Both the position numbers and the translations under genes were made by a program. From a virus, in the IMG/VR virus record IMGVR_UViG_3300043466_003540, positions 1-64,000 of that record: a stretch of DNA of 64,000 nt; one strand, given 5' to 3'. Numbering within the stretch: position 1 is the stretch's first letter; every line of letters starts with the position of its first letter. This document shows, piece by piece, positions 225 through 53,431 of this stretch. The notes beneath the pieces are model-generated. The model was not told the origin of the DNA and searched no databases. It was given only the letters and a program-made list of their open reading frames with translations.

Positions 225-1103
225 ATGGCCTTTAGAGGAGTTTTTGAAGCACCTATGGTTATGGGCGCTAACTTTGGTCTACTCGGCTGCGTTAAGCCTG
301 AAACTAATTTAGACGAAGATCAATGGGTACGCGGTTTTTCTCAGTATTGGGACAGCGGAGTATATTCTGCTAAAAACTGGGATGATACAGACACAACATC
401 ATATACAATTGCAAGTAATGCAACACCTGCTCGTTATCTAGAAGTTAAACCATTTTTTGTTGAAGTTGAAGATTATCGCTCAACACTAGGTCTACTTGGT
501 ACAGACCATATTGAAAGAATTAGACGTCAGTTAGAGTGTATTACACAAAAGGCTCTTGAAACAGAGTTGTGGGACGGTGCAATTCGCATTGGTGAAGAGC
601 ATTCAAATAGGGCACTAGTAGACCCTGCCGCTACCATACTTAATTCAGGTACAGCGCTGTCCGCTCGTCGCGCTCTCGCGCTTCTTGAGCAGTCAATTGG
701 GGATGCCTCAGCTTGCGGAATCCAAGGAGTTATTCACATGACTCGCGACGTTGCATCACTTGTTGCAAGCTCAAACTTAATTTATCCTTCAACTGATAGT
801 GGTGACACATTCCTTAGAACTGTTGGTGGAACTCCAGTAGTAATTGGTTCTGGGTACTCGGGAGCAGGTCCAACAGATGCAGCTGGGGATACAGAAACAC
901 CTACTGCTACAAATAAATGGATGTACGCCACTGGTGACGTTAGAGTCATTCTTGGCGATATTGACGTTGTTAATGATAATTTAGCACAAGGCTACGATGT
1001 ATCAGGCAACGCGAACAACATGCTTCTTAAAGCAATTCGTCCTGCTGCAGTGTACTTTGATTCATCTGTACATTTAGCAATCAGAGTTGATTTAACAGCG
1101 TAA
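225..1103 (+). CDS. Capsid-related structural protein (major or minor capsid type)
   Basis: This 292-residue protein has the look of actinophage capsid-type structural proteins: an N-terminal MAFRGVFEAP segment, a central block with RIRRQLE and TELWDGAI, and a C-terminal beta-rich part with GYDVSGNANN and AIRPAAVYFD, as in the last strands of capsid folds. It starts with ATG after a hairpin and lies just before the tail-tube gene. Family assignment is from pattern memory. It could be the main capsid protein, or a second capsid/decoration protein if the truncated gene upstream is the main one. Confidence 0.55.
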   Translation: MAFRGVFEAPMVMGANFGLLGCVKPETNLDEDQWVRGFSQYWDSGVYSAKNWDDTDTTSYTIASNATPARYLEVKPFFVEVEDYRSTLGLLGTDHIERIRRQLECITQKALETELWDGAIRIGEEHSNRALVDPAATILNSGTALSARRALALLEQSIGDASACGIQGVIHMTRDVASLVASSNLIYPSTDSGDTFLRTVGGTPVVIGSGYSGAGPTDAAGDTETPTATNKWMYATGDVRVILGDIDVVNDNLAQGYDVSGNANNMLLKAIRPAAVYFDSSVHLAIRVDLTA

Positions 1104-1141
1104 AATAAGAACAAGTAAGACCGACTAAAGGAGAAATCAGT

Positions 1142-2191
1142 ATGGCCACTCAGGACTACGCGGCAAGCGTCCAAGGTGTGGCGATCCGAGTCACTAGACT
1201 GGACGCCTCAGGTAACCTACTCACCGAACCAGGTGATAGCTACACAACCTCGGCGTTTCTTCGCGCATCATTTACACCAGAGTACGAAGAAGGCGATGAA
1301 ATCGTAGAAAAGTCAGCAAACGGTACAGTTTGCGTTTCCTACAAAGCCCCAGACACTCTTAAAAGAATTACTATGGAACTGGCAATTTGTGAGCCAGACA
1401 CAGAACTCACTGCTCTGTTAGCAGGAGGTTTGCTACTTCGTAAGAATCTAGGAACCTTTGCTGCACCAGATCGCACATCAATTGGTTGGGCCGCGCCAGC
1501 CGTTGGAGATGACCCTGCTGGAAACGGCGTTGCTCTTGAAGTTTGGTCATTTGCTGTGAAAGATGGAAAGCGTGCAACAACTCGTCCATACTTCCACTGG
1601 GTTTTTCCATATGTTAAGCTACGTCAATCAGGTGACCGTGTAATTGAAAACGGATTACTTGCAAACACTTTCGAAGGCTACGGTCTTGGAAATGAGTTCT
1701 TTGATGCAGGTCCAGACGGCCGCTGGGAGTTCCCAGTTGCAGCAGAGCGTCCATATTCATACGCTCGCGATACATGGGCACCAACTGGTCTAAAGGGCTT
1801 CTACGAGTGGCATCCTGAAATTACTAAGACTATTAGTAACTCAGCTCGCGCTGGAACTACTGCAACTATTACAACATCTACCGCTCACGGAATGCGTGTA
1901 GGAGATAGAGTAACTATTTCTGGTACCAACGGAAATGCTCCACTACATGGTACTTACACAATTACTACAACTCCAACAACAACAACATTTACATACACCA
2001 CTACAACTAGCGGAACTATTACCTCTGCTGCTGACACTGGAACTGCATTTGTTGATTATGGATACTGGGAAGTTACAGACTTCACTTCTGAAGGATCTAC
2101 TACTGAGTACAACGTACCTGGTAGCAGTTCATATAATGCTGACAACGATGTTGACTTCATTATTGCTTCATCAGAGGACCCAACCTCTTAA
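1142..2191 (+). CDS. Major tail tube protein with a C-terminal FCCH-like beta module
   Basis: A 349-residue protein preceded by AAGGAG (about 1128-1133). Residues 1 to about 225 resemble actinophage tail-tube subunits: an early beta region, the PDTLKRITMELAICEPD segment and a GRWEFPVAAE-type strand. Residues about 228-303 form an extra module with the pattern THGM.VGD.VTISG....L.GTYTIT..PT.TTFTY, also found in the Dit-like and hub-like tail proteins. Such an inserted module would be displayed on the outside of the tail tube. The gene is closed by a strong terminator, which fits a highly expressed subunit. Its place before the head-tail connector genes is not the commonest order. Confidence 0.72.
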   Translation: MATQDYAASVQGVAIRVTRLDASGNLLTEPGDSYTTSAFLRASFTPEYEEGDEIVEKSANGTVCVSYKAPDTLKRITMELAICEPDTELTALLAGGLLLRKNLGTFAAPDRTSIGWAAPAVGDDPAGNGVALEVWSFAVKDGKRATTRPYFHWVFPYVKLRQSGDRVIENGLLANTFEGYGLGNEFFDAGPDGRWEFPVAAERPYSYARDTWAPTGLKGFYEWHPEITKTISNSARAGTTATITTSTAHGMRVGDRVTISGTNGNAPLHGTYTITTTPTTTTFTYTTTTSGTITSAADTGTAFVDYGYWEVTDFTSEGSTTEYNVPGSSSYNADNDVDFIIASSEDPTS

Positions 2192-2204
2192 TATAAGTAA
2201 GAAG

Positions 2205-2268
2205 AAGGGCGGACGACGTATTGGTCGTATCATTGATACAACTAATCGTTGTTCGCCCTTACTTTTTA
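2205..2268 (+). terminator. Long intrinsic terminator after the tail tube gene
   Basis: A 14-bp stem with two G-U pairs (2205-2218 with 2247-2260) encloses a second stem (ATTGG/CTAAT) and a GTATC/GATAC tip at 2227-2239. A T run follows at 2263-2267. The structure ends 16 bases before the next start codon. Confidence 0.85.
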
Positions 2269-2283
2269 GGATTGGTATAGATA

Positions 2284-3426
2284 ATGAGTAATCTTTGGGT
2301 AGATGTTAGCGAACTTGGACCTACTTATGCAGAGTCCCAGTACGCATATGATGCTGTAAAAACAGCCTCGTACCTGCTCTGGGGTATGTCTGGAAGAAAG
2401 TACTCTGGTGTAACAACTGTCACTGAGCGATACGTATCTTCTTATGACCCTAATATCCGCATAGGTGCATCTATCCTTACATATTCTCCTACTTTAATTA
2501 GAGGAAATGTTGAAAATATTAGATTAAACGGCTCAGGACCTTATCAACAAGATGACTTTACAGGCGATGGAACATCAGCAAGTACTCGTGTGCGTCTTCG
2601 TGGTCGTAAAGTAATAAGAGTTCATACTCTAAGAGATAGAAATGGCGTTGTAATAGATCCAAGAGATTATTACTTAGTAGAGCACTCCACAATTCTTGCT
2701 ACCCCTGGGGCAGGATGGACATCTTCTAATATTGAAGTTACTTATTCATATGGAACACCGCCACCAATAGCAGGAAAAGCTGCTGCTCGACTACTTGCCA
2801 TTGAACTTGTTAAGTTGTATGAAAATGATGACACCTGCGCTCTCCCTCAGCGTGTAACTTCTGTTGCTCGTCAAGGTGTTTCATACACAATCCTTGATAA
2901 TCAAGATTTTATTGATGAACTTAGAACTGGTTTATATGCTGTAGACCTATTTCTAAAAACAACTAATCCAGACAGAGCAAGAGCAAAAGCAAAAGTATTT
3001 AGCCCTGATACTCCTAGAGCACGCCGTCCTGTTCCTAAGCCATATCAATTAACAGAGACCCCTTATGATTTGAAAGTTCTTACATCTGGTAGTTCACTAG
3101 TTCTTTATTTAAATGAAATAAATGGAGAATTCTTAGAAGATGACCCATCTTGGGAAGTTTCTTTGACGGTATCTGACCACTCTTATACAAAGTCAGAGGA
3201 TTTAGAAAACTCTATCAGTCTTAGCCGTGTTAATGGAACAATAACTATTTCTCCAACTTATAGTCAAATATTAGATATTATTGGTCCAAGAGAGCCTGGT
3301 GTTTATGACATCTACTGCACTCGACCTAGTTTGGAAAATCCTGCTATTGATGAAGTAATTAACCTACTTACAGCAAACGTATCATTTGAACTTTACACAA
3401 GAGTAGAGCCAATTTATACACTGTAG
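2284..3426 (+). CDS. Head-to-tail adaptor (connector) protein
   Basis: A 380-residue protein. The N-terminal half has the actinophage adaptor pattern: WVDVSELG, then ASYLLWGMSGRKYSGVTTV, then a beta-rich centre and a helix AARLLAIELVKLY. This is the HK97 gp6-like connector class that sits between portal and tail. The C-terminal 130 residues or so (from about 250) are an extra beta-rich extension unlike the short connectors of many phages and have no function I recognise. It starts with ATG directly after a terminator, so it may have its own promoter or depend on read-through. Confidence 0.62.
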   Translation: MSNLWVDVSELGPTYAESQYAYDAVKTASYLLWGMSGRKYSGVTTVTERYVSSYDPNIRIGASILTYSPTLIRGNVENIRLNGSGPYQQDDFTGDGTSASTRVRLRGRKVIRVHTLRDRNGVVIDPRDYYLVEHSTILATPGAGWTSSNIEVTYSYGTPPPIAGKAAARLLAIELVKLYENDDTCALPQRVTSVARQGVSYTILDNQDFIDELRTGLYAVDLFLKTTNPDRARAKAKVFSPDTPRARRPVPKPYQLTETPYDLKVLTSGSSLVLYLNEINGEFLEDDPSWEVSLTVSDHSYTKSEDLENSISLSRVNGTITISPTYSQILDIIGPREPGVYDIYCTRPSLENPAIDEVINLLTANVSFELYTRVEPIYTL

Positions 3427-3453
3427 TATGTGTACAACAAGTAGGAGAGACAA

Positions 3454-3960
3454 ATGTCGACACCAATAAATAAAGCAACTGTTAGTAGCAGTGCCAAAAA
3501 TCTTGCTGTATTTTTAGACGCAGTTCTTACTCAAGTTGTCACTTCTTATGCTTCTTACACTATGCCACTTCCTCTGCGTAGATATTACACATTAGGACAG
3601 CCTGTAGTTGACTGCGAACAAGTAGTTGTCTCTTTTGTGCAGATGTATGTTGGCGCTCCAGGGGATGAGGCAACTCAGCCTCGCAGATGTAGTGACCCAA
3701 GAAGTGCGACAATTAATGTTTCTGTATCAAGAGCAGTGCCTGTAGTTGGTCAAAATGGTAGACCACCTTCTGCTGAAACAATAGAGAGTGCTTCAGAAAT
3801 TGCTGCGTACGACGCATGGATTTTACTAGACAGCGCTGCTCAATTAGATACTTGGGAGTCGTCTGGTTTTGGTCTTGGGGTTATCGCAACTGTTGAGGTT
3901 CAGGCTCCTGAAGGTGGATTTCAAACTGTAACTTTGACCCTTACTGCAGCGGTTCCGTAA
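3454..3960 (+). CDS. Probable tail terminator or head-closure protein
   Basis: A 168-residue protein between the adaptor and the HK97 gp10-like gene. It contains CEQVVVSFVQMYVG and PRSATINVSVSRAVPV, a pattern I associate with actinophage neck proteins. The stop codon is followed one base later by the next start, so translation is probably coupled. Assignment rests on position and pattern, so it could be either the head-closure or the tail-terminator protein. Confidence 0.55.
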   Translation: MSTPINKATVSSSAKNLAVFLDAVLTQVVTSYASYTMPLPLRRYYTLGQPVVDCEQVVVSFVQMYVGAPGDEATQPRRCSDPRSATINVSVSRAVPVVGQNGRPPSAETIESASEIAAYDAWILLDSAAQLDTWESSGFGLGVIATVEVQAPEGGFQTVTLTLTAAVP

Positions 3961-3961
3961 A

Positions 3962-4345
3962 ATGGCAACAGTAGTTTTTCGCAAGGCAGAGTTAGATTTT
4001 ATGCTTAACTCTCCTGAAGGCGATGTAGGAAAGTACTTAGCAAAAAAGGGTCGTTTAATAATGGCAGCTGCTAAAGCTCAGGTTGGTGTAAGAACAGGAG
4101 CACTTCGTTCATCTATTCACATGAGACATTTACGAGACTCTCGAGGTCAGTATGTGAAAATTGGCTCTAATTTGGACTACGCTTTGCTACACCATCAAGG
4201 CAGTAAGCCTCATGTTATTCGACCAGATAGGGCAAAAGTGTTGAGATTTGTTAGAGGATCAAGGGTGATATTTGCAACTTCTGTTATGCATCCTGGAACT
4301 AAAGCAAATCGCTATCTATCAGATAACTTAAAGTTGGTAAAATAG
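3962..4345 (+). CDS. HK97 gp10-like neck/tail completion protein
   Basis: A 127-residue protein with the family's typical features: a helix, then VRTGALRSSI, then a YALLHHQGSKPHVI segment and a C-terminal VMHPGTKANRYL. These are the marks of HK97 gp10-like proteins, which complete the head-tail joint. It lies in the expected place between connector genes and the tail chaperones, and its start follows the previous stop by one base. Confidence 0.75.
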   Translation: MATVVFRKAELDFMLNSPEGDVGKYLAKKGRLIMAAAKAQVGVRTGALRSSIHMRHLRDSRGQYVKIGSNLDYALLHHQGSKPHVIRPDRAKVLRFVRGSRVIFATSVMHPGTKANRYLSDNLKLVK

Positions 4346-4406
4346 GAACAACATTTACTATAAAAATGGTAAATAAAAAGACAAATGAGAAAAGAGGAAT
4401 ATCAAT

Positions 4407-4760
4407 ATGACAACAGATAGGTTTAAAGATTTTGGTAGCGGGAGTGATGTAAATACGCAACCCTTATTTTTTAAACTTTATGGAGAAGATTTCCATTGCA
4501 AAACGGCTCTTCAAGGTAAAGTTCTTTTGGATATGGTTGCAGACTCGAGTTCTGAATCAAACGGAATGGCAACCGCACTTATTGAAAAGTTTTTTGCAAA
4601 GGTTTTGCTACCAGAAAGTTTAGAGCGTTTTCTAAAATTGGTAGAGGATCCTAGCAAAATTGTAACTGTAGATAAATTAGGCGAAATTACTTCTTGGTTG
4701 GTCGAGCAGTACTCAAGCCGTCCTACGTCGGGGCTAGAGGACTCGCAGAGTGGGCAGTAG
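4407..4760 (+). CDS. Tail assembly chaperone, short form (gpG-like)
   Basis: A 117-residue protein just upstream of the tape measure gene, the canonical place for the gpG-like tail chaperone. Its C-terminus is hydrophilic (SSRPTSGLEDSQSGQ), which is typical of the short product. The next open frame overlaps it in the -1 frame, as expected for a frameshifted long form. The protein is thought to coat the tape measure during tail assembly. Confidence 0.72.
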   Translation: MTTDRFKDFGSGSDVNTQPLFFKLYGEDFHCKTALQGKVLLDMVADSSSESNGMATALIEKFFAKVLLPESLERFLKLVEDPSKIVTVDKLGEITSWLVEQYSSRPTSGLEDSQSGQ

Positions 4761-5140
4761 ATCTCTGGCCTTATGTTAACGGGAAAGCACTAATGAGCGG
4801 CCTACAACTATCTTCTATGGAACTAGCAGACATGCTAGATGTTATCCATGTAATTTTTGAAGATGACATTACCTCCGTCGCTAGTGCAGAACAAGTTGAC
4901 GTCAAAGAAAAAGTAAGAGAAATTATTTATAGGGATTTTTATGAAACTACTTATAAATACAAGACAACTAAAAAAAGTCAAAACGCAGGTTTTGACAACT
5001 CTGTTGGAGATTTTGATTACAGCGACATCACACCGTTTGACCCAAGCAGTCAACCAGTGAAGCCGTTTGTTCCAGCAACAGATTTTAACCCAGACATGCA
5101 AAAGCCGTTTGGGTCTGTACTAGATGCCCCTTTGGGCTAA
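4407..5140 (+). CDS. Tail assembly chaperone, long form by -1 frameshift (gpGT-like)
   Basis: The frame open from about 4694 to 5140 lies one base back from the short chaperone frame and overlaps its end. A run of four G at 4730-4733 spans the codon GGG (4731-4733), so the P-site tRNA can slip back one base and still pair with GGG. The shifted product would read ...RPTSG then ARGLAEWAVDLW. This is the expected gpG/gpGT arrangement, but the G run is not a textbook XXXYYYZ heptamer, so the exact slip site is inferred. The ATG at 4694 lacks a clear ribosome-binding site, so I do not treat the second frame as a separate gene. Confidence 0.6.
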
Positions 5141-5161
5141 GAGATTAGGAGGTGATGGCGC

Positions 5162-8035
5162 ATGGCAATTGTTGGTGATGCATATGTAGTAGTTCGCGCC
5201 ATCACTTCTAGTGTTGAAAGAGACATTCAAAAAGCTTTTAATGGTGTTGATAGAGTTGGTGAAAGAGCTGGAAAAGATTTATCTGATGGAGTAAATAGAG
5301 GTTTTAGTAAATCTGGTAATAATTTTAATTTTATTACACCCCAATTTTTAGCAGAAGCAGATAGAGCTAGAGAAAGATTTTCTAGTTTAACAAGAGCTGG
5401 TTTTTTCTTAGGTCCAATACTTACTTCATTAGGTGGGATTATTGGTCTTCTTGGTACAGGACTTATCTCTCTTACCTCGATAATTGGGGCTGCTGCCACT
5501 CCAGCGTTAATTACTTTAGCTGGAGCATTCACAGCCGCGGGTCAAGCAGCAATAACATTAAGATTAGCATTTTCTGGAATTGCTAAAGCAGTACAAGCAG
5601 GAAATAAGGCTTCTAAAAAAACGGTCTCTTCTATAAAATCAGAAGAATCTGCTCAAAGAAACTTACTAGCAGCGTATGAAAGATTAGCAGAAGCAAGAGA
5701 AACTGCAATTGAACAAATACAGCAACTAGGTTTTGATTCTGAGAACGCTGCAATATCAGAAAAAAGAGCTGCTTTAGAGTTAGAAAAAGCTCGTGAAACT
5801 CTTGCTCGTGTTTCTGATTTACCACCTAACTCTCGTGCTCGTAAAGAAGCAGAACTTGCCTTTGCTGAAGCAGATTTAAATTATCGTAGAGCAATTGATC
5901 GTAATAATGACCTTAAAAAATCAGAAGCAGCAAATGCTAAATTAGGTCCAGATGTAAAGTCTCAGGTAGATGGAAGTAAGATAGTACTTGAGGCTACAAG
6001 AAATGTAATAGAAGCAACTGAAGCACGAGACGCTGCCTTACAAGGTTCTGGAACAGATGCCTACCAAGATGCTTTATCTGGTTTATCAAAAGAAGCTCAG
6101 AATTTTGTTAAATACTTGGTTTCTATACAATCAGAGTTTAAAAAACTAAGTTCTGCTGCTGGACAAAGACTTTTTCCTCAACTAGAAATAGCAATAGATA
6201 ACTTAGTAAAGAATCTATTTCCTGCTTTAAGACCTCTTCTTACCGCAACTGGAGATGTTTTAGGTAAAGTAGCAATAAGAATTTCTGAGGTCGTGACAAG
6301 CTCAGAGAACATAAGAAGACTAGAGTCCATATGGAAAACAAACAATAAATTTATCGACAATCTTGGTAGTGCAGTAGGCAATCTCTATGAAGGATTTTTA
6401 ATTCTTCTAAAAGCTGCTAAACCATTAATTGATGCTTTTGGTGAGTTTTTAAAAAATACAACAGAATCTTGGAAAGAAACTCGAAAACTTGACGAGGCAA
6501 CTGGGAAACTTACAGAACGTTTTAAGATTGCTCAGGGCATATTAAAAGATTTAGGTACCATTCTTGGAAACGTTTTTGGTGGATTTCAAAATCTTGTACA
6601 AGCAAACGTGGGTCCTGGAAGCGCTGGAGAGATTTTCTTAGAGTACTTTAAGGACATATCTTTAGCCTTTAAAAATCTAGAAACTATTGATGGTAGACCT
6701 ATAAGAGAGTTTTTTGCTGATGCAGCAGAAAATGGAACAAAACTTTTAAGTCTTCTTGGAAATATTCTAGGAGGATTTATAACTCTTGCTGATAACCCAG
6801 AACTAGGAGTTTTCTTAGGTCAACTAAATGAAGTTACAGATATCTTCCAAGAAATAGGTGAAGATATAAGCAATGCTTTGCCTTCTTTTGGTGAATTTTT
6901 AATAACATTTGCCGAATTTGTAAAACTAGTTACCGAATCTGGCTCTATAAAAATATTTTTTAATACTTTAACCAGTGTTTTAGAGACTTTAAACAAAATT
7001 TTAGAAAGTCCTGTAGGGCAATTCTTTTTAAAACTTTCAGCTGCTATACTTCCAGTGCTAGGTGCTCTTGGTCTAATAGGTAAAATAAGTGGATTTGCTT
7101 TTAAAGTAGCTGTAAGTGGAATACTTGTACTAACTAGAACATTAGGAGTTTTAACTGGTTCAGCCAAATTAGCTGCTTTAACTACAAGTACTTTACAAGC
7201 AAAAATATTATCTCTTGCAGCTTCAGCTGTCAAAGTTGCTAGAACAGCAATGGTTCAGTTGGTAAAAGCAATAGGTACATCTCTTGTAGCTGCTTTTAGA
7301 GGTTTAGGGGCTGCCATTGCGGCAAACCCTCTTGGACTTTTTCTAACCGTAGTCGGTCTTGTACTTGCAGCTATCGGGATACTTTATACAAAAAGTGAGA
7401 CGTTTAGAAATCTTGTTAATGGTATAGGTACAGCAATAAAAAATGCTTTTTCAGGAACAATTGATTTCTTAAAGAACAACTGGCCTATGATACTTTCTAT
7501 TCTTACAGGTCCTATTGGTGCTGCAGTTATTGCAATAGCACGAAATTGGGACAGCATTATCTCTACTATTAGAGCTCTTCCTGGTCGCATAAGGGCTGCG
7601 GCAAGTGGTCTCTGGGATGGGATAAAAGACTCATTTAAACTTGCTATAAATTACATTATTGGAAGATGGAATGCTCTTCAATTTAATTTAAGATTTCCAG
7701 ATAAAATTTTTGGGATTCCATTAGGACCTCTTGCTGGAAGAGGCTTTACGTTAGATACTCCAGATATTAAACCTCTTGCAAAAGGCGGAATTGTTATGCC
7801 TTCTGCTGGTGGAACTCTTGCCACAATTGGTGAAGCAGGACGCCCTGAGCGTGTAGAACCACTTGACCCAGATGGTTTATCAAAGCGTGATAAAGCAATG
7901 ATTGAAATGCTATCTGGTGGAAGAGGTTCTGGAATTAACATAACAATTAATCCTTCTGCTGGTATGGATGAAAGAGAGCTTGCATCCATTGTTTCTCGTC
8001 AGATTGCCTTCCAACTTCGTAAGGGAGCAGCTTAA
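5162..8035 (+). CDS. Tape measure protein
   Basis: At 957 residues this is the longest gene of the tail module, placed right after the chaperone pair. It has an N-terminal helical region, hydrophobic segments near residues 80-130, 630-690 and 715-760, and a coiled-coil rich part near 155-260. The C-terminal pattern LAKGGIVMPSAGGTLATIGEAG is common in tape measure proteins. At about 0.15 nm per residue the tail would be roughly 140 nm long. The ATG is preceded by AGGAGG, and the stop overlaps the next ATG by one base. Confidence 0.92.
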   Translation: MAIVGDAYVVVRAITSSVERDIQKAFNGVDRVGERAGKDLSDGVNRGFSKSGNNFNFITPQFLAEADRARERFSSLTRAGFFLGPILTSLGGIIGLLGTGLISLTSIIGAAATPALITLAGAFTAAGQAAITLRLAFSGIAKAVQAGNKASKKTVSSIKSEESAQRNLLAAYERLAEARETAIEQIQQLGFDSENAAISEKRAALELEKARETLARVSDLPPNSRARKEAELAFAEADLNYRRAIDRNNDLKKSEAANAKLGPDVKSQVDGSKIVLEATRNVIEATEARDAALQGSGTDAYQDALSGLSKEAQNFVKYLVSIQSEFKKLSSAAGQRLFPQLEIAIDNLVKNLFPALRPLLTATGDVLGKVAIRISEVVTSSENIRRLESIWKTNNKFIDNLGSAVGNLYEGFLILLKAAKPLIDAFGEFLKNTTESWKETRKLDEATGKLTERFKIAQGILKDLGTILGNVFGGFQNLVQANVGPGSAGEIFLEYFKDISLAFKNLETIDGRPIREFFADAAENGTKLLSLLGNILGGFITLADNPELGVFLGQLNEVTDIFQEIGEDISNALPSFGEFLITFAEFVKLVTESGSIKIFFNTLTSVLETLNKILESPVGQFFLKLSAAILPVLGALGLIGKISGFAFKVAVSGILVLTRTLGVLTGSAKLAALTTSTLQAKILSLAASAVKVARTAMVQLVKAIGTSLVAAFRGLGAAIAANPLGLFLTVVGLVLAAIGILYTKSETFRNLVNGIGTAIKNAFSGTIDFLKNNWPMILSILTGPIGAAVIAIARNWDSIISTIRALPGRIRAAASGLWDGIKDSFKLAINYIIGRWNALQFNLRFPDKIFGIPLGPLAGRGFTLDTPDIKPLAKGGIVMPSAGGTLATIGEAGRPERVEPLDPDGLSKRDKAMIEMLSGGRGSGINITINPSAGMDERELASIVSRQIAFQLRKGAA

Positions 8036-10176
8036 TGAGTCGCTCAAATCTGTTTACAAACCCTACCTACCAAACTAACACTACTGGCTGGTCTGCTGCT
8101 CAGAATCTAAACAAAAGAATTATTAACTCTCAGAGAAGTTCTACTACTGCAACAATAACTACCAGCACTGATCATGGATTTTTAGTTGGTGACACTGTAA
8201 CCATTTCTGGGACAAATGGAAACTCCGCCCTTCACGGTACTTACACAATTACAGCAGTGCCAACTTCAGTAACATTTAGATACACAACTTCCACAAGTGG
8301 AACAATTACATCGGCACCAGATACAGGAACTGCCACTGTTTTTGGGTTAGCACCTTCTACAAATACAAAAAATATTAGTAATTCTGAAAGAACTAGTACA
8401 ACAGCACTTATAACTACTTCAGCAGCCCACGGCTTCGTAGTAGGAGATGTTGTAACTATTGCTGGAACTAATGGCAATACCCCATTGCACGGAACTTACA
8501 CAATTACAGGGGTTCCTAGCGATACTACTTTTACTTACACAACTTCAACTTCTGGCAGTATTACTTCCGCGGCCGACACTGGTACAGCAGTAGTTGCAAC
8601 AACCTCTATTTCAGTAACTTCCTCTGACTATTTTGTCGGTTCCTCGTCTTTAGAAATAACCAAGTCTGCTCAAGCAAACTCTGGAGTAATTACTACAAAT
8701 AGAATTGCTACTACAGCGCTATCTAGTTATTCCATTTCTGGGTATATAAAAGTCCCAAGCGGTCAAGAAAGTGGCTCTTTTAGTATTAAAGCAATTTGGT
8801 ACAACGCTTCTACTTCTGGTTCTATAGTTTCTATAAGTAATAACACTGCTACATCTTCAACTAATTCTTCTGGGTGGAAGCGAGTTACAGCAGTATTTAC
8901 TGCTCCTGCAACATCTACTCACGCTAACTTTGCTTTTATTCAAACTACTGCTGGAACTACAGCAAAAACTTTTTTACTTGATGCTGTTTTATTAGAAAAA
9001 TCTGCTTCAGTAGGAGAGTTTTTTACTAACTCTAATCAATCTAATGAAACTTCAAAGGTAAACCTTGCTTTAACTCCACTTCCACAGCCTCATCTAACTG
9101 GAATGAAGTTACAGGCAGATATATCGCTCAATGACTTTACATTTAATACAATTGATGAATACGGGGTTGTTTGGGTAGTTACTGACCTTGGTGGTTGGTG
9201 GCAACCTCCTTCAGCTGAAGTTCCTGATATTGCTAGAGGCTGGGGAGACGGCTCTTATGATGTTAAAGGTAGATACAACGCAAGAGATATAACTTTTGAA
9301 GGCGTTATTTTAACTCCAGACCCTTCTTTGCTTGCTGCTGCTAGAGATAGATTAGTTGCTGCTACAAACTTAGTTTATTCTGGAGCATGGCTTAAAACAA
9401 ATGAAGGTTCTTCTGTCAGAGCATCCTATGTAAGACTAAGTGGTGATGTTGAAATTCAAACAGTAAATGCTCGTGGTCGAACTGAGTTTTCTATCGGTCT
9501 TAGGGCAGCGGACCCAATAAAGTACAAGTGGAATACTGCAGACCCAACATACGGGTATAACAACACATTAATTACCTGCAGAGGCAGCTCTACTTCTGAA
9601 GATGGAACAGAGATTATTGAAAATGAAGGAAACTTTCCAGTTAGCGTATATCTAACAATCACTGGTCCACTTACTGGTCCAGCAATTATTTCTAATGACA
9701 CTACCGAAGAATTTATTACTATAACAGATACACTAAGAGCAGAAACCACTAAAACAATTAATAACAGAGGATTAACTGATAATTTAGTTACAATCTCTAC
9801 AACTACTACTCATGGAATGATTGCTGGTGACGTTGTCACCATCTCTGGTCTTGGTTCGCCATATGATGGAGTTGTCACTGTTCTAAGTACCCCTACAACT
9901 AGCACATTTACATATGAAACAGTTGGTTCTAATGTTGCCTACGGAGCTGCAAGTGGAAGCGTTGTATATGGTCCCGATGTTTTAGAAATTGATACATATG
10001 ATAGGTCTGTATTTTTAAATGGCGCATATTCTGGAGCAAGGTCTAAGTTAGAAGTGTATAACAACTGGATTAATCTATATCCAGGTAATAATACAATTAG
10101 TTTTTTTGACGAAGGCAATACTGTTAACCCCACAGCGACGCTATCTGTAGACTATAGGTCTGGGTGGCTTTCTTAA
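8035..10176 (+). CDS. Distal tail (Dit-like) protein with three FCCH-like modules
   Basis: A 713-residue protein directly after the tape measure gene. Two FCCH-like modules of about 75 residues lie near the N-terminus (about 8110-8345 and 8365-8600). A jelly-roll-like region follows (residues about 190-330), then a Dit-like core with GVVWVVTDLGGWW, DITFEGVILTPDP and FSIGLRAADPIKYKW, and a third module at about 9748-9972. Dit proteins form the ring at the tail tip to which fibres attach. The added modules may decorate this ring or bind the host surface. Confidence 0.7.
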   Translation: MSRSNLFTNPTYQTNTTGWSAAQNLNKRIINSQRSSTTATITTSTDHGFLVGDTVTISGTNGNSALHGTYTITAVPTSVTFRYTTSTSGTITSAPDTGTATVFGLAPSTNTKNISNSERTSTTALITTSAAHGFVVGDVVTIAGTNGNTPLHGTYTITGVPSDTTFTYTTSTSGSITSAADTGTAVVATTSISVTSSDYFVGSSSLEITKSAQANSGVITTNRIATTALSSYSISGYIKVPSGQESGSFSIKAIWYNASTSGSIVSISNNTATSSTNSSGWKRVTAVFTAPATSTHANFAFIQTTAGTTAKTFLLDAVLLEKSASVGEFFTNSNQSNETSKVNLALTPLPQPHLTGMKLQADISLNDFTFNTIDEYGVVWVVTDLGGWWQPPSAEVPDIARGWGDGSYDVKGRYNARDITFEGVILTPDPSLLAAARDRLVAATNLVYSGAWLKTNEGSSVRASYVRLSGDVEIQTVNARGRTEFSIGLRAADPIKYKWNTADPTYGYNNTLITCRGSSTSEDGTEIIENEGNFPVSVYLTITGPLTGPAIISNDTTEEFITITDTLRAETTKTINNRGLTDNLVTISTTTTHGMIAGDVVTISGLGSPYDGVVTVLSTPTTSTFTYETVGSNVAYGAASGSVVYGPDVLEIDTYDRSVFLNGAYSGARSKLEVYNNWINLYPGNNTISFFDEGNTVNPTATLSVDYRSGWLS

Positions 10177-10200
10177 GCCCTAAACTTAAGGAACATAAAA

Positions 10201-12831
10201 ATGACAATTCATGAAATTACACCAGCAGAGTATAGATATTATGCTGTTGACATTATTACAAATAATATATTAGGTGAAATCCCTTTTACAGATGTTACAT
10301 ACCAAAGAGCCTTAAGTAAGGCTGGGTCATTTTCTGGCTCTGTACCTGTAATAGAGGCAACTGCAGATTTTAATTTATATGAAAATACAATGCCAGGAAA
10401 AACAGCGATATACATTCTTAGAAATGGTGTTTGCGTCTGGGGTGGGATTATATGGAGTAGAAGTTATTCTCCTCAAAATAAAACTTTAACTGTAGATGGC
10501 GCTGAGTTTATAAGTTATTTGTACCACAGAGCAGTGTGGCAAACTCTTTATTATGGCAGCGAGCCTTATTACTGCACCGAGTATGAAGCATCGGCTGGAA
10601 CTGCAACAATTTATACAAATACAGCCCATGAATTTGCAGTGGGAGACACTGTAGAAGTTTACGCACTAAATTCTGCATTAAACGGTGTTCATACCATCAC
10701 TGCAGTTCCATCTTTGGCAAGTTTTTCATTTGCAAGTAGTGCTACTTTATCTCTTAGTAGGTCAGACATAGGTCAGGCTCGTTCTGTAGTTGACTCTTAC
10801 GATGTTGCTAGAGATATTTTAGGATGGTTAAATGATGATTTTAGTGCAAATGAGTTTATCAACGACGAGGTAACCCCTGCAACAGATTTAGAGTACACAG
10901 TAACTAATAAAGTGTGCGTTTCTGACACTGCTACATTAACTACGTCTGAAGTTCACGATTTAATTGAAGGTCAACTAGTAGAAATAGTTGCAGTTGACGG
11001 TGTTTTAGATGGATTTAGGACAATAACTGCTATTCCAACTACTACTAGCTTTAGTTTTGTTGTTACAGGCGCTGGAAATATATCTTCTGCTGCTGTAACA
11101 CCCTATACGTCCTATGATGTTACTTCCAAAACAATATCTACTATTACTTTATCTATCTCTAACAAACAAGTTACAGACAATATTGCTACATTAACAACTT
11201 CTACTGAGCATGGGCTTGCAGTAGGAGATTATGTAAGCGTTTCTAAGTTAGATAATATAGTTTCTTATAACAAAACTGCCACTGCTTCTTCAGGCTCTAC
11301 AAGTATGACAGTTACAGATGCCTCGAACATAAGCCCAGGCATGTTGGTCTCGATTACTGGAAAGTTAAGTGCAAATACTATTGTTCAAAAAGTAGTTGGC
11401 ACAACAGTGACTCTAAACAAACCTACTTTGGCAGCAATCTCATCTGAATCAGTTACTTTTACAGTTCAAGCAGTGCTAAACGGTACTCATATAGTAGTTG
11501 ATGTTCCAACTAACTCTTCTTTTAGTTATCCAGTAGACAACCCTGACACAGCAATCACCGCGGTGGTAGTAGGGGAGGCTTCTTACAAAACAGTGACATT
11601 AACTACTAGTTCTGTTCACAATTTAACTGCTGGAAAAAGCATTGTTGTTGAAAATGTTGGGTCTGATTATGATGGAGTAAGCATAGTTACAGTAGTTCCA
11701 GATACACGAACACTTAGATATAATAAATATTCCGTTTTAAATTATGCGACTTCAGCAGTATACGGTGGAACTGTTTCTTGGGGAGCAAGAGCAGTTGCTG
11801 GAACCTACGGGTCATACTCCTCAAACTCTGATATTGCTATTACTTCTACAGCGGACTTGAGTGGTAAGTATTTAGGCTCTACTCAAAGTGTTTTTAGAGG
11901 GTCTGACTTAAGAATGTTTGGAGAAATCTTAGAAGATTTTGCTAAAGAATTAGATGGTTTCGAGTACAGAATAGATTGTGATTTTCAGAATAATCAATTT
12001 ACAAGAAGTTTTGCTTTTGTTCCCTTTAAGACTCCTCCAGAAAAAATAGCAGTAACTAATAAACAATTAACATCTAATATTGCTACAGTAACTACAGAGA
12101 CTATCCATAATCTATCTGTCGGGGATGAAGTAGTTCTTACGGATGTAGGACTATCTTTCGATGGGACTGTTGTAGTGGTCAGTGTGCCCACAACTACTAC
12201 TTTTACTTTCTATTCATACAATAATAATGTACCTTCCACCGCTTGCGAAGGATATATTGGCATAGTTCTACCGCTAAGTGCTCTCGGTGCTGACCAAAAC
12301 GTTTTTGAGTATCCAGGTAATGTATTTGAATTTACTTTAAATGAAAATGCAGAAAACTCCGCTACCCGCATGTGGGTAGGAGGAAATGCAGATAGTTTAG
12401 ATGGAACAGCAAGTCAACCATATGCAGCAGCTACTGATACATCCTTGCTAAAACAAGGGTGGCCTATTTTAGACCAAATAGAAGAAAAAAATGATGTCAA
12501 TACTGTTGCTGCTGGTAAAGAAGCTTTGTATTCATATGCTCAGGACTTTCTTGGGGAATCTAGACCGCCAGAGGCTATCTTTACTATTTCTGTAAATGGT
12601 TCTATAGATCCTGTAGTTGGAAGTTATCTGCCAGGAGACTGGTGTTCAATAATAATTGATGACGAGTTTGTTAGAATGCGTTTAGCAAATGATTTAGAGC
12701 CTAGAGGCGATGTTATTGTTAGAAAAATTATTAGTTACAGCGTCAGCGTCCCAGAGACACCAGCATTTCCAGAGACAGTAACATTAGAACTTATAGACGA
12801 ATGGAAGGAGGACAGAAAAAATGACAAGTAG
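10201..12831 (+). CDS. Tail hub-like minor tail protein with five FCCH-like modules
   Basis: An 876-residue protein. Its N-terminus (LGEIPFTDVTYQRALSKAG, then YILRNGVCVWGGIIW) matches the actinophage minor tail protein/baseplate hub type (Gp37-like). The core is interrupted by at least five FCCH-like modules, at about 10580-10785, 10900-11110, 11155-11580, 11580-11790 and 12050-12265. The third is itself split by a ~60-residue beta insert (about 11275-11470). The C-terminal part (GDWCSIIIDDEFVRMRL) returns to the hub-like fold. The gene overlaps the next by 11 bases. Confidence 0.65.
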   Translation: MTIHEITPAEYRYYAVDIITNNILGEIPFTDVTYQRALSKAGSFSGSVPVIEATADFNLYENTMPGKTAIYILRNGVCVWGGIIWSRSYSPQNKTLTVDGAEFISYLYHRAVWQTLYYGSEPYYCTEYEASAGTATIYTNTAHEFAVGDTVEVYALNSALNGVHTITAVPSLASFSFASSATLSLSRSDIGQARSVVDSYDVARDILGWLNDDFSANEFINDEVTPATDLEYTVTNKVCVSDTATLTTSEVHDLIEGQLVEIVAVDGVLDGFRTITAIPTTTSFSFVVTGAGNISSAAVTPYTSYDVTSKTISTITLSISNKQVTDNIATLTTSTEHGLAVGDYVSVSKLDNIVSYNKTATASSGSTSMTVTDASNISPGMLVSITGKLSANTIVQKVVGTTVTLNKPTLAAISSESVTFTVQAVLNGTHIVVDVPTNSSFSYPVDNPDTAITAVVVGEASYKTVTLTTSSVHNLTAGKSIVVENVGSDYDGVSIVTVVPDTRTLRYNKYSVLNYATSAVYGGTVSWGARAVAGTYGSYSSNSDIAITSTADLSGKYLGSTQSVFRGSDLRMFGEILEDFAKELDGFEYRIDCDFQNNQFTRSFAFVPFKTPPEKIAVTNKQLTSNIATVTTETIHNLSVGDEVVLTDVGLSFDGTVVVVSVPTTTTFTFYSYNNNVPSTACEGYIGIVLPLSALGADQNVFEYPGNVFEFTLNENAENSATRMWVGGNADSLDGTASQPYAAATDTSLLKQGWPILDQIEEKNDVNTVAAGKEALYSYAQDFLGESRPPEAIFTISVNGSIDPVVGSYLPGDWCSIIIDDEFVRMRLANDLEPRGDVIVRKIISYSVSVPETPAFPETVTLELIDEWKEDRKNDK

Positions 12832-36481: not shown

Positions 36482-39298
36482 TTAGGTTTTAATCCAAGGA
36501 GTGTATCCTACTGGAGCCTCTATAGGAGTAAGTACATGGTAAGTTTTAGGGATAGATTTGCTGTTTTTAGCCATGTAAAGTGACTGGTTTGATCCTCCTG
36601 CGATAATCCAAGAGTTATTCCCATACGCTACCCTAGAAACAGGCTCAAGTGTGTCCGCGCCTGCGTACGAGTATACCTGTGTTGTCCAGTTTATTCCATC
36701 TAAAGACGTTCTTACTCCTCCATTTAAGCTTACCAAAATAAATATTCCATCTCCGTAGGCTATTGAAGAAATACCTAACGTTATAGGAATGTTAGAGTTT
36801 TGCGTGTTCCACGTCACACCGTTATCCGTTGAGGTCCTTAGCGCTCCTCCTGCACCTCCTGCGGCCCACACACCATTTCCATATGCAACCGAGCTAATCG
36901 CACTGGTTCCAAACTGTGAAGTTTGCGTATTCCAGTTAAGCGCGTCAGTTGAAGTTCTTAACGTTCCACTAGCACCCACCGCAATGAAAGTTCCATTTCC
37001 ATAAGCAACTGCACATATAGTACTTGAACCAAATTGTGACGTCTGCGTATTCCAGTTAAGCGCGTCAGTCGAGGAGTGCAGCATACCTTGTATTCCTACA
37101 GCAACCCATACTCCATTTCCATACGCGACTGACTGGACAGCTGATGTGCCAAAGTTAGGTCCATAAGATCTCCAGTTTATAGTGTCAGTTGAGGAGCGCA
37201 GTTTTCCACTCGCACCTGCCGCAACAAAAATTCCATTTCCATATGCAACCGAGTTAATCCCACTTGTTCCAAACTCTGAAGTTTGTGTATTCCAGTTTAT
37301 AGTGTCAGTTGAGGTCCGCAGCGTTCCCCCCGCGCCTCCCAAGACCCACGTTCCGTTTGCATACGCAACGGCTACGATCGAACTTGTTCCAAACTGTGAC
37401 GTTTGCGTGTTCCAGGTCACACCGCCGTTTGTTGAAGTTCTTAACGTTCCTGCGCTTCCTCCCGCAACCCACGTGCCGTTACCATACGCAACAGCACTAA
37501 TTCCACTTGAACCGCCAAACTCTGAAGTTTGCGTATTCCAGTTAAGCGTGTCAGTTGAGGTCCGCAGTGTTCCTGCAAATCCTGTCGCTACCCACACACC
37601 ACCTCCATACCCAACTGCATCGATAGTAAGAGTACTTCCAAAATTAGTACCGTATCCTATCCAAGTTATAGCATTGTTAGTTGATGTTCTTGTAGTTCCA
37701 CCACTTCCTCCAAGTAACCAAGTTCCATTTCCGTACGCAACACCAAGAATATCACTTGTACCAAAGTTAGGAGTCTGAGTATTCCATGTTACACCGTTAT
37801 CAGTTGAGGTCCGTAGTCCTCCAGAAAAAGACGCTGCAGTCCACACACCATTACCATAAGAAACGGCGTTTAAACTACTTGTAGTATTAGAAGTACGCGT
37901 GGTCCACGTAACACCATCAGGTGAAGTTCTTATCGCTCCTCCTGCTCCTGTCGCTATAAAGACACCATTACCATAAGAAACGGCGTTTAAACTACTTGTA
38001 GTATTAGAAGTACGCGTGGTCCACGTAACACCGTTATTCGTTGAAGTTCTTATCGCTCCTCCTGCTCCTCCCACTACAAAGACACCATTACCATATGCAA
38101 CAGAGCGAATATCACTGGTTCCAAACGTTGACGTCTGCGTATTCCACGTCACACCGTTATTCGTTGAATTTCTTAACGCTCCACCCGCACCCACCGCTAC
38201 CCACGTGCCGTTGCCATACGCAATTGCACTAATTATACTAGTTCCAAACTGTGAAGTTTGCGTATTCCAGTTAAGCGTGTCAGTTGAGGTCCGCAGCGTT
38301 CCCCCTGCGCCTCCTACAACCCATACTCCATTTCCATACGCGACTGCATAAATAATACTTGAACCAAATTGTGACGTCTGCGTATTCCAGTTAAGCGCGT
38401 CAGTTGAAGTTCTTAACGTTCCACTCGCACCTCCAGCTACCCAGACACCGTTGCCGTACGCAACCGCAGATATGGCAGTTGCACCAAACTGATTTCCATG
38501 AGCGTTCCAAACAGTTATGTTTGTTGAAGTTCTTAACGTTCCTGCTTGTCCTCCAGCTACCCACGTGCCGTTTCCATACGTGATAGCACGAATTCCAGTT
38601 GTTCCAAACTGTGACGTTTGCGTGTTCCAGTTTATTGCATCAGTAGACGTTCTTAATACCGCCGAGTCTCCTCCCACTACAAAAACTCCATTACCATAGG
38701 CAACTGAAGAAATTGAAGTTCCACCGAACTGTGAAGTTTGCGTATTCCACGTCACACCGTTATCCGTTGAGGTCCTTAGCGCTCCTCCTGCGCCTACCGC
38801 AACATAAATTCCATTACCATAGGCAGTTGAAAAAATAGTACTTGAACCAAAATTAACTCCGTAATTAATCCAGTTTACCGCATTATCTAGTGATGTTTTT
38901 GCATTTCCTCCGTCTCCCACCAAAAGCCAAGCTCCATTACCATATGCAGCAGAACAAATTCCATTTGCACCGAACTGTGAAGTTTGCGTATTCCACGTCA
39001 CACCGTTATCCGTTGAGGTCCTTAGCGCTCCTCCTGCACCTGCTGCTATATATGTCCCATTACCATAAGCAACAGAATTAATAATACTTAAGCCAATAGT
39101 ATGATTAACTGAAGACCAAGTAGAGTAATAAGGAATTATTTTACCAAGTCTAGAATTTGAGTTAATAGTTTGAGTAGTACTTAAATTTAACCAGCCTGGT
39201 CCTGGTGAACCTAATGAACTTTTTCTATATATAACACTACCAGTCTTGTACACTACTTCTTTTTTAGAATCTTGATTATTCATTTTATTTTCATCCAT
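36482..39298 (-). CDS. Giant repeat protein: 21 Asp-box blades, three predicted seven-bladed propellers
   Basis: A 938-residue protein. After a 70-residue N-terminal part (YKTGSVIYRKSSLG, GPGWLNL), there are 21 copies of a ~39-residue unit of the type SAVAYGNGTWVAGG-x-GTLRTSTDNGVTWNTQTSQFG, then a 30-residue tail (TPWIKT end). STDNGVTW is an Asp box (BNR), known from sialidases, Vps10 and HCF136-like propellers. Twenty-one is a multiple of seven, the usual blade number. The first start is ATG at 39298, overlapping the previous gene by 19 bases. Probably a virion or cell-surface adhesin. Confidence 0.7.
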   Translation of the reverse strand: MDENKMNNQDSKKEVVYKTGSVIYRKSSLGSPGPGWLNLSTTQTINSNSRLGKIIPYYSTWSSVNHTIGLSIINSVAYGNGTYIAAGAGGALRTSTDNGVTWNTQTSQFGANGICSAAYGNGAWLLVGDGGNAKTSLDNAVNWINYGVNFGSSTIFSTAYGNGIYVAVGAGGALRTSTDNGVTWNTQTSQFGGTSISSVAYGNGVFVVGGDSAVLRTSTDAINWNTQTSQFGTTGIRAITYGNGTWVAGGQAGTLRTSTNITVWNAHGNQFGATAISAVAYGNGVWVAGGASGTLRTSTDALNWNTQTSQFGSSIIYAVAYGNGVWVVGGAGGTLRTSTDTLNWNTQTSQFGTSIISAIAYGNGTWVAVGAGGALRNSTNNGVTWNTQTSTFGTSDIRSVAYGNGVFVVGGAGGAIRTSTNNGVTWTTRTSNTTSSLNAVSYGNGVFIATGAGGAIRTSPDGVTWTTRTSNTTSSLNAVSYGNGVWTAASFSGGLRTSTDNGVTWNTQTPNFGTSDILGVAYGNGTWLLGGSGGTTRTSTNNAITWIGYGTNFGSTLTIDAVGYGGGVWVATGFAGTLRTSTDTLNWNTQTSEFGGSSGISAVAYGNGTWVAGGSAGTLRTSTNGGVTWNTQTSQFGTSSIVAVAYANGTWVLGGAGGTLRTSTDTINWNTQTSEFGTSGINSVAYGNGIFVAAGASGKLRSSTDTINWRSYGPNFGTSAVQSVAYGNGVWVAVGIQGMLHSSTDALNWNTQTSQFGSSTICAVAYGNGTFIAVGASGTLRTSTDALNWNTQTSQFGTSAISSVAYGNGVWAAGGAGGALRTSTDNGVTWNTQNSNIPITLGISSIAYGDGIFILVSLNGGVRTSLDGINWTTQVYSYAGADTLEPVSRVAYGNNSWIIAGGSNQSLYMAKNSKSIPKTYHVLTPIEAPVGYTPWIKT
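36580..39090 (-). repeat. Near-identical 117-bp coding repeats
   Basis: The blade unit is about 117 bases. A block of about 70 bases at 37846 is repeated identically at 37963, exactly 117 bases later. Other blades share long exact runs with the genes at 39280 and 40341. Confidence 0.85.
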
Positions 39299-40353
39299 CC
39301 ATATACACCATTACCGAGATATGTATTAGGTGTTTTAAAAGTAGTTAATATTTTTGTTGTTGCAATTACGCCCAGTCCAACTACAACCCATGCATTATTA
39401 CCATAAGCTGCATCGTAAACTATCGAATTTATATTATTTAATGATATCTGCGTATTCCAGTTAAGTGCATCCGTAGAAATCATAATTCCTTGACTGTTTA
39501 TTCCTCCTAATAACCACTTATTATCTGCGTATGTTAAAGCATAACTGGCTATTTGTCCTGATGTATACGTTTTTGGGATAGACCAGTTTATAAGGTTAGT
39601 AGAAGTTTGTATAGTATCATCTGCGTTAATTGAAGCTACTGCCCAAATTCCATTTCCATACGCTATTTTAGAAATTCCTGTTACTAAATAGTTTAAAGTT
39701 GTTTGCGTGTTCCACGTCACACCGTTATCAGTTGAGGTACGTAATCCTCCACCTACACCTCCAAAAACCCACGTGCCGTTTCCGTAGGCAACAGAGCATA
39801 TAGTTGCGCTGTAATTAGATGTCTGTGTTGTCCACGTCACACCGTTATCCGTTGATGTTCTTACACTTGCTGAACTACCGACAGCAATCCACGCGCCATT
39901 ACCATACGCAACAGCACATATGGCTGTAAAAAATGTAGAAGTTCGCGTAGTCCATGTAATACCATTTTCTGATGTTCTTAAAGCTGTACCCGCGCCTACA
40001 GCAACGAAAGTTCCATTTCCATAAGCAATTGAAAAAATAGTACTTGAACCAAACTGTGAAGTTTGCGTATTCCAGTTAAGTTCATCTGTTGACGTACGCA
40101 GTACTCCTGATGCACCTCCAGCTACCCAGACACCGTTGCCGTACGCAACCGCACATATATTTAGTCCACTTCCATCATTTAAAAATTTTAAATTTGCTAA
40201 AGAAGAATTAGAAAGTTTATTAGAAAAATTACTATCAACTTTAACTACGCTTCCATCAAGTTTTACCCATGAACTTCCTGGTGAGTCAATACCAAATACT
40301 ATTTCACCTGTATCATAGTAGTTTTTTCTTATATTTTTATTCATTGTGTCCAT
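39280..40353 (-). CDS. Asp-box repeat protein: seven blades, one predicted propeller
   Basis: A 357-residue protein with an N-terminal segment (YYDTGEIVFGIDSPGSSW) similar to that of the gene at 36482, then exactly seven YGNG-type blades and a short C-terminus (YGWMKIK). The first four carry the standard Asp box; the last three are more divergent. It looks like the smallest member of the set, a single seven-bladed propeller. Its ATG (MDTMNKN, alternative MNKN three codons on) overlaps the gene before by 13 bases, so translation is coupled. Confidence 0.72.
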   Translation of the reverse strand: MDTMNKNIRKNYYDTGEIVFGIDSPGSSWVKLDGSVVKVDSNFSNKLSNSSLANLKFLNDGSGLNICAVAYGNGVWVAGGASGVLRTSTDELNWNTQTSQFGSSTIFSIAYGNGTFVAVGAGTALRTSENGITWTTRTSTFFTAICAVAYGNGAWIAVGSSASVRTSTDNGVTWTTQTSNYSATICSVAYGNGTWVFGGVGGGLRTSTDNGVTWNTQTTLNYLVTGISKIAYGNGIWAVASINADDTIQTSTNLINWSIPKTYTSGQIASYALTYADNKWLLGGINSQGIMISTDALNWNTQISLNNINSIVYDAAYGNNAWVVVGLGVIATTKILTTFKTPNTYLGNGVYGWMKIK

Positions 40354-46683: not shown

Positions 46684-48831
<2,148 letters not shown>

Positions 48832-48924
48832 TCATTTCACTCGAGTGGGATGATTCCCAAAGCCAATTTTACCCTAAATAAAAAAGGTGATTAAAATAAA
48901 ATTAAACTCTAAATTCTTATTAAA

Positions 48925-51114
<2,190 letters not shown>

Positions 51115-51130
51115 TTTTTAACAGCTCCTT

Positions 51131-53431
<2,301 letters not shown>

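Follow-up and report, generated by a model that had tools for sequence, protein, structure and literature searches.

Why should the tail tube protein, the tail tip proteins and a collagen-like fibre of one phage all carry the same small beta domain? The purpose of optional small domains on phage tails and heads is an old open question, raised by Ig-like domains, and the locus studied here raises it again. It lies in a window of 64,000 nucleotides, bases 1-64000 of the 85,269-base IMG/VR record of an uncultured phage. Our main reading, to which we give a probability of roughly 0.7, is that one family of beta domains with the FCCH fold serves as optional in-frame surface cassettes on virion proteins.

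The window and its virion genes

The relevant genes are listed below (other loci are cited by phage name or L number).

225-1103, plus strand: second HK97-fold capsid protein, as predicted from alignment and from the model and fold search of the L163 orthologue; without module in the window
1142-2191, plus strand: major tail (tube) protein (MTP), 349 aa, with tube core at residues 1-223, module at 231-305 and conserved C-arm-like tail at 311-349
2284-3426, plus strand: head-tail adaptor (phrog_783); without module in the window
5162-8035: tape measure
8035-10176: Dit, with an SPP1_Dit C-terminal domain
10201-12831: hub
48925-51114, minus strand: collagen-like fibre with collagen repeats, holding one secure module
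51131-53431, minus strand: second collagen-like fibre, with a weak, probable module

The MTP matches phrog_792 (major tail protein, E 4e-21), its orthologues are annotated as major tail protein and its model is weakly similar in fold to tube proteins, lambda gpV among them. The gene at 225-1103 is taken to encode a capsid protein because the predicted structure of its L163 orthologue (2863-3951; module-bearing and well modelled, pLDDT 85, pTM 0.85) matches HK97-fold coat proteins, with P22 gp5 first. By MTP the closest isolates are Microbacterium phages (Zooman, A3Wally, Pumpernickel and others) at about 63% identity. DSL-LC01, a lake phage known from assembly, has a more similar MTP (77% over shared parts). 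Since DSL-LC01 is predicted to infect Actinomycetia (PMC10611076), the host of the window phage is likely actinobacterial as well.

Ten homologous copies of one module

Modules were detected by iterative profile search over all six-frame ORFs and then over the whole 85-kb record. The whole-record search returned 12 matches, corresponding to ten secure copies of one ~70-residue homologous domain (MTP 1, Dit 3, hub 5, minus-strand collagen-like fibre 1; one of the ten as two half-matches) and one weak copy. In the remaining 21 kb of the record beyond the window the profile search gave no additional copies.

1832-2056, plus strand: MTP copy, missing from the DSL-LC01 MTP
8119-8343, plus strand: Dit copy A (N-terminal), profile search, clusters with MTP modules
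8374-8598, plus strand: Dit copy B (N-terminal), profile search, clusters with MTP modules
9757-9972, plus strand: Dit copy C, inserted ahead of the SPP1_Dit C-terminal domain, cleanly missing in L152 and L063
10582-10788, plus strand: hub copy A, profile search
10900-11112, plus strand: hub copy B, profile search
11155-11544, plus strand: hub copy C, split into halves (11155-11298 and 11461-11544) by a foreign beta-type insert at about 11260-11460
11563-11784, plus strand: hub copy D, profile search, missing in L033
12052-12258, plus strand: hub copy E, profile search, missing as a unit in L033
50257-50475, minus strand: collagen-like fibre copy
51479-51637, minus strand: second collagen-like fibre, weak, probable copy

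To avoid circularity the model was rebuilt four times, each time without every copy from one protein. The copies left out were recovered with i-E-values of 7e-25 (MTP), 3e-21 to 6e-17 (Dit), 8e-16 to 2e-9 (hub) and 3e-22 (fibre), and no reversed or shuffled ORF scored below 0.05 against the left-out models. The second half of hub copy C alone is weak (left-out i-E 0.016) but is considered secure because the orthologues in L013 and L040 carry copy C uninterrupted. The copy in the second fibre (13-20 bits, E about 1e-3 to 3e-5, high compositional bias) is probably real. Across nine aligned copies four positions are invariant: the H of HG, the G of VGD, the G ahead of the central strand and the P of PT.

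The initial annotation, made from the sequence pattern, had proposed at least nine copies of a ~70-residue module, including the opposite strand, and had suggested an HMM search as the check, with absence of profile similarity as the contrary outcome; the copies do detect each other and number ten. Its counts of three in Dit, five in the hub and one in the tube protein were all recovered. Some details had to be adjusted: the MTP copy, given as 1824-2050, starts near 1832; the third of the five hub copies is interrupted by an insert of about 67 residues; and of the two fibre copies the one at 50257-50475 is secure, whereas the other has only a low score and biased composition.

Domain class and predicted fold

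The Pfam family E1_FCCH (PF16190, cut-off 29.5) matches Dit (30.3 bits) and the hub (31.8 bits) just above its threshold. The MTP and the fibres give no E1_FCCH match by themselves and are linked to the family through homology to the other copies; against Pfam the MTP matched no Ig-like, FN3 or any other family even at E 1. The AlphaFold2 model of the MTP is confident over the module (residues about 225-305, pLDDT mostly above 90) and poor in the core, for which the alignment was too shallow. Searched against the PDB, this model is most similar to the ubiquitin E1 enzymes UBA1 and UBA6 (E 3.5e-4, probability 1.00); next come a phage endosialidase and the tail tube proteins of lambda and others. 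Judging from where the model is confident, we infer that the UBA1/UBA6 match concerns the FCCH part itself. PDB chains searched by sequence with the module gave no match at a meaningful E-value.

The term FCCH-like, used in the initial annotation, is thus correct as a statement on domain and predicted fold, and no ubiquitin chemistry follows from it. The carriers (tail and fibre proteins) match no E1 family in Pfam or PHROG, indicating an FCCH-like domain and not an E1. Whereas profile match and predicted fold are shared with the E1 FCCH domain, the virion modules occur outside any E1 enzyme context and are used alone, in tandem and nested. Phage proteins that match this misleadingly named ubiquitin E1 domain thereby gain a clear meaning.

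The major tail protein with and without the module

Core and C-terminal peptide recur in the DSL-LC01 MTP, joined there by a short linker of roughly nine residues instead of a module. The naked MTPs of GodonK (217 aa) and Racecar (218 aa) stop where the module would start, and those of L163, L164 and L165 also have none. The module is hence a domain appended outside a complete tube domain and, since phages without it in the MTP exist, it is dispensable there. Of the distinct MTPs compared (138 in all), most carry a single module (122). Two to four are present in seven, and in nine none was detected; L171, L172 and L176 from this last group have a diverged domain instead, perhaps a remote copy of the module. 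By eye, the MTPs of L210, L223 and L225 have modules inside modules. Mean identity to the window copy is 57% for the module, 86% for the MTP core and 75% for the C-terminal peptide, the module being by far the most variable part. The MTP of L024/L025 appeared 480 nt longer, and an insertion in the MTP was rejected: the extra upstream sequence belongs to the capsid gene before it, where it encodes a module.

Gain and loss in other virion proteins

Whole-module presence and absence is also seen in Dit and in the head-tail adaptor, where relatives such as L015 and L031 have the module, and in the hub, where L033 lacks the last two copies. In the second capsid protein the module is present or absent between the motifs GSGY.G.GP and KW.YATG (present in L163, L024 and other relatives), and in the major capsid protein it is present in L239/L240 and absent in GodonK and DSL-LC01. 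Hub copy C, whole in L013 and L040, is split by the foreign beta-type domain in L088 and L044 as in the window. Placed on the MTP-core tree, these patterns require at least 4 presence changes each for MTP and adaptor, 5 for Dit and 12 for the second capsid protein, counts that are approximate because of weak capsid copies, diverged MTP domains and between-gene recombination. As judged from the alignments, the module is an in-frame cassette, gained and lost as a whole unit in otherwise alignable proteins.

A further 107 module-bearing ORFs lie outside the core models; those examined include major capsid proteins with an internal module (L239/L240, 1244-3199, phrog_777; L255, 1752-2927, phrog_1357), tail fibre and tail proteins and many phrog_11667 members. 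One bacterial genome with the module is a MAG of an uncultured actinobacterium (L321), in which a 2565-residue subtilase-family protein (524-8218) combines fn3 and glycine-rich domains with seven modules; this protein looks secreted, and the module thus has a use in a bacterial protein as well.

Relationships among the copies

Residue identity among the modules of MTP, Dit A and Dit B is 74-77%, against 65-68% at the nucleotide level and 38-44% at third codon positions. Recent duplication, for which the initial annotation had suggested comparing the copies, is rejected, because third positions are nearly saturated at about 40% identity. For the hub copies, Dit C and the fibre copy, similarity is highest to the module at the corresponding position in other phages. 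Dit A and B are closest to their own orthologues, and MTP modules come next. Moreover, Dit A and B belong to a supported clade whose modules come from MTP (14), Dit (6), the adaptor (1) and other proteins (2). The module tree, poorly resolved with its 68 columns, requires 51 changes of carrier protein compared to 149 in shuffles, which argues for mostly vertical inheritance with repeated transfers between proteins. In particular, types of module have passed from one protein to another, as between MTP and the Dit N-terminus, in one direction or the other.

The earlier idea of a mobile decoration domain is therefore upheld by gain and loss of whole units and by movement between virion proteins among relatives. 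That it had been copied into every exposed virion protein does not hold, as the head-tail adaptor, the second capsid protein and other tail genes of the window have no module.

Placement and possible function

In SPP1 and 80alpha the C-arm folds onto the outer sheet of the subunit next to it; the tube proteins of lambda, T5 and YSD1 have an extra C-terminal domain that projects outward (PMC8718954). By analogy the MTP module very likely lies outside the tube, because it is flanked by the tube core on one side and by a conserved C-arm-like tail on the other, an arrangement in which it would be tethered at both ends. Every tube subunit would then display one module outside the wall, and a hexameric ring would put six on show. 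We further suggest that the modules would make many weak contacts with host surface polymers, ahead of binding by tip and fibres, and would also lend some stabilisation to the tail surface. Host-polymer contacts are favoured because the module is found on every particle layer and in a bacterial protein that looks secreted. The adhesive role remains tentative, at slightly less than even odds, and the Pfam hits of these proteins include no carbohydrate-binding family.

An alternative is that the module mainly clamps neighbouring subunits, like domain 2 of YSD1 or the SPP1 C-arm, and is not an adhesin. Its position ahead of the C-arm-like tail would suit such reinforcement, as would the added contacts made by the beta domains of the YSD1 and lambda tube proteins (PMC8718954), but close relatives have MTPs without the module, it diverges faster than the MTP core and it also occurs in fibres and in the putatively secreted protease, so that we consider a clamp unlikely. 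Slightly less likely again is near-neutral spreading, in which a small domain that folds by itself is accepted at exposed sites and copied by illegitimate recombination, without a general function. Repeated gain or loss, the nested insertions in MTPs and the foreign domain within hub copy C are what this would predict; however, the high residue identity of MTP, Dit A and Dit B despite their nearly saturated third positions points to constraint at the protein level, and exactly one copy is kept in the great majority of MTPs (122 of 138).

Chance or convergent likeness of Thr-rich beta sequences has next to no probability. The modules are rich in Thr, and the MTP copy as tblastn query returned no matches, probably due to the low-complexity filter (the fibre copy served as query for further module loci), but the leave-one-protein-out values, the clean decoys and the confident fold prediction refute chance for the ten copies; only the second-fibre copy stays at probable. 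We therefore favour optional surface cassettes. A wider proposal, which we regard as doubtful, is that the FCCH-fold family is a virion-wide adhesin cassette of actinobacterial phages, coating the particle with one weak host-polymer binder and perhaps traded with surface proteins of the host, for example the seven-copy subtilase. If true, capsid, neck, tube, tip and fibres of different phages would all be plugged with one type of adhesin cassette.

Comparison with other decorated virions

The principle of decoration is already established by Ig-like domains and by the carbohydrate-binding modules (CBMs) of 936 phages. The Ig-like domains (Big_1, Big_2, FN3) of lambda gpV, T5 pb6, YSD1 and SPP1 gp17.1* are likewise optional beta domains after the tube core, one per subunit (in SPP1 on a fraction of the subunits) and pointing outward in the solved cases (PMC8718954). 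In contrast, the window module is of FCCH type and is followed by a conserved C-arm-like tail, and its family is also present in capsid, adaptor, Dit, hub and fibres. The 936 lactococcal phages carry CBMs on the neck passage structure, the MTP TpeX and evolved Dit, and here too related modules sit on several virion proteins and vary in presence among close relatives (PMC6669499). The two differ in that the BppA-like CBMs have binding assays, whereas the FCCH module is known here from sequence, and in that the FCCH module is placed more widely, including major capsid proteins.

The P22 coat protein carries an insertion (I-) domain. The module-bearing capsid protein of L163, with P22 gp5 as its top PDB match, is likewise predicted to be an HK97-fold coat protein with an additional beta domain; the likeness is one of fold and extra domain. 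Full-text literature searches returned no paper on FCCH or PF16190 as a phage decoration. What is new is the class of domain, its spread over capsid, neck, tube, tip and fibres within one phage group, the nested insertion and a large natural presence/absence series. In this series related phages differ in whether their orthologous capsid, neck, tube and tip proteins have the module, in up to eight copies, or lack it. Because of this series, and because culturable Microbacterium phages carry the module, a decoration function is directly testable.

Additional observations

PHROG family phrog_779, of unknown function there, is by structure prediction a second HK97-fold capsid protein; its gene adjoins the major capsid gene in relatives, and it may be a vertex (pentamer) protein. 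The phrog_11667 proteins (about 740 aa; L253, L266 and many other loci) have the module at about 180-240 or 459-518, and L264 has modules at both kinds of position. The Dit of Pumpernickel (gp95; L084, 22519-26211) has a tandem of about five half-modules of ~36 residues, consisting of the N-terminal half only. On the minus strand of the window, 46684-53431 is a row of three collagen-like fibre genes with G-x-T-rich repeats, only one of which has a secure module, and 36482-44849 encodes very long proteins of YGNG.WVA.G..GTLRTSTD repeats, by eye beta-propeller or Asp-box-like.
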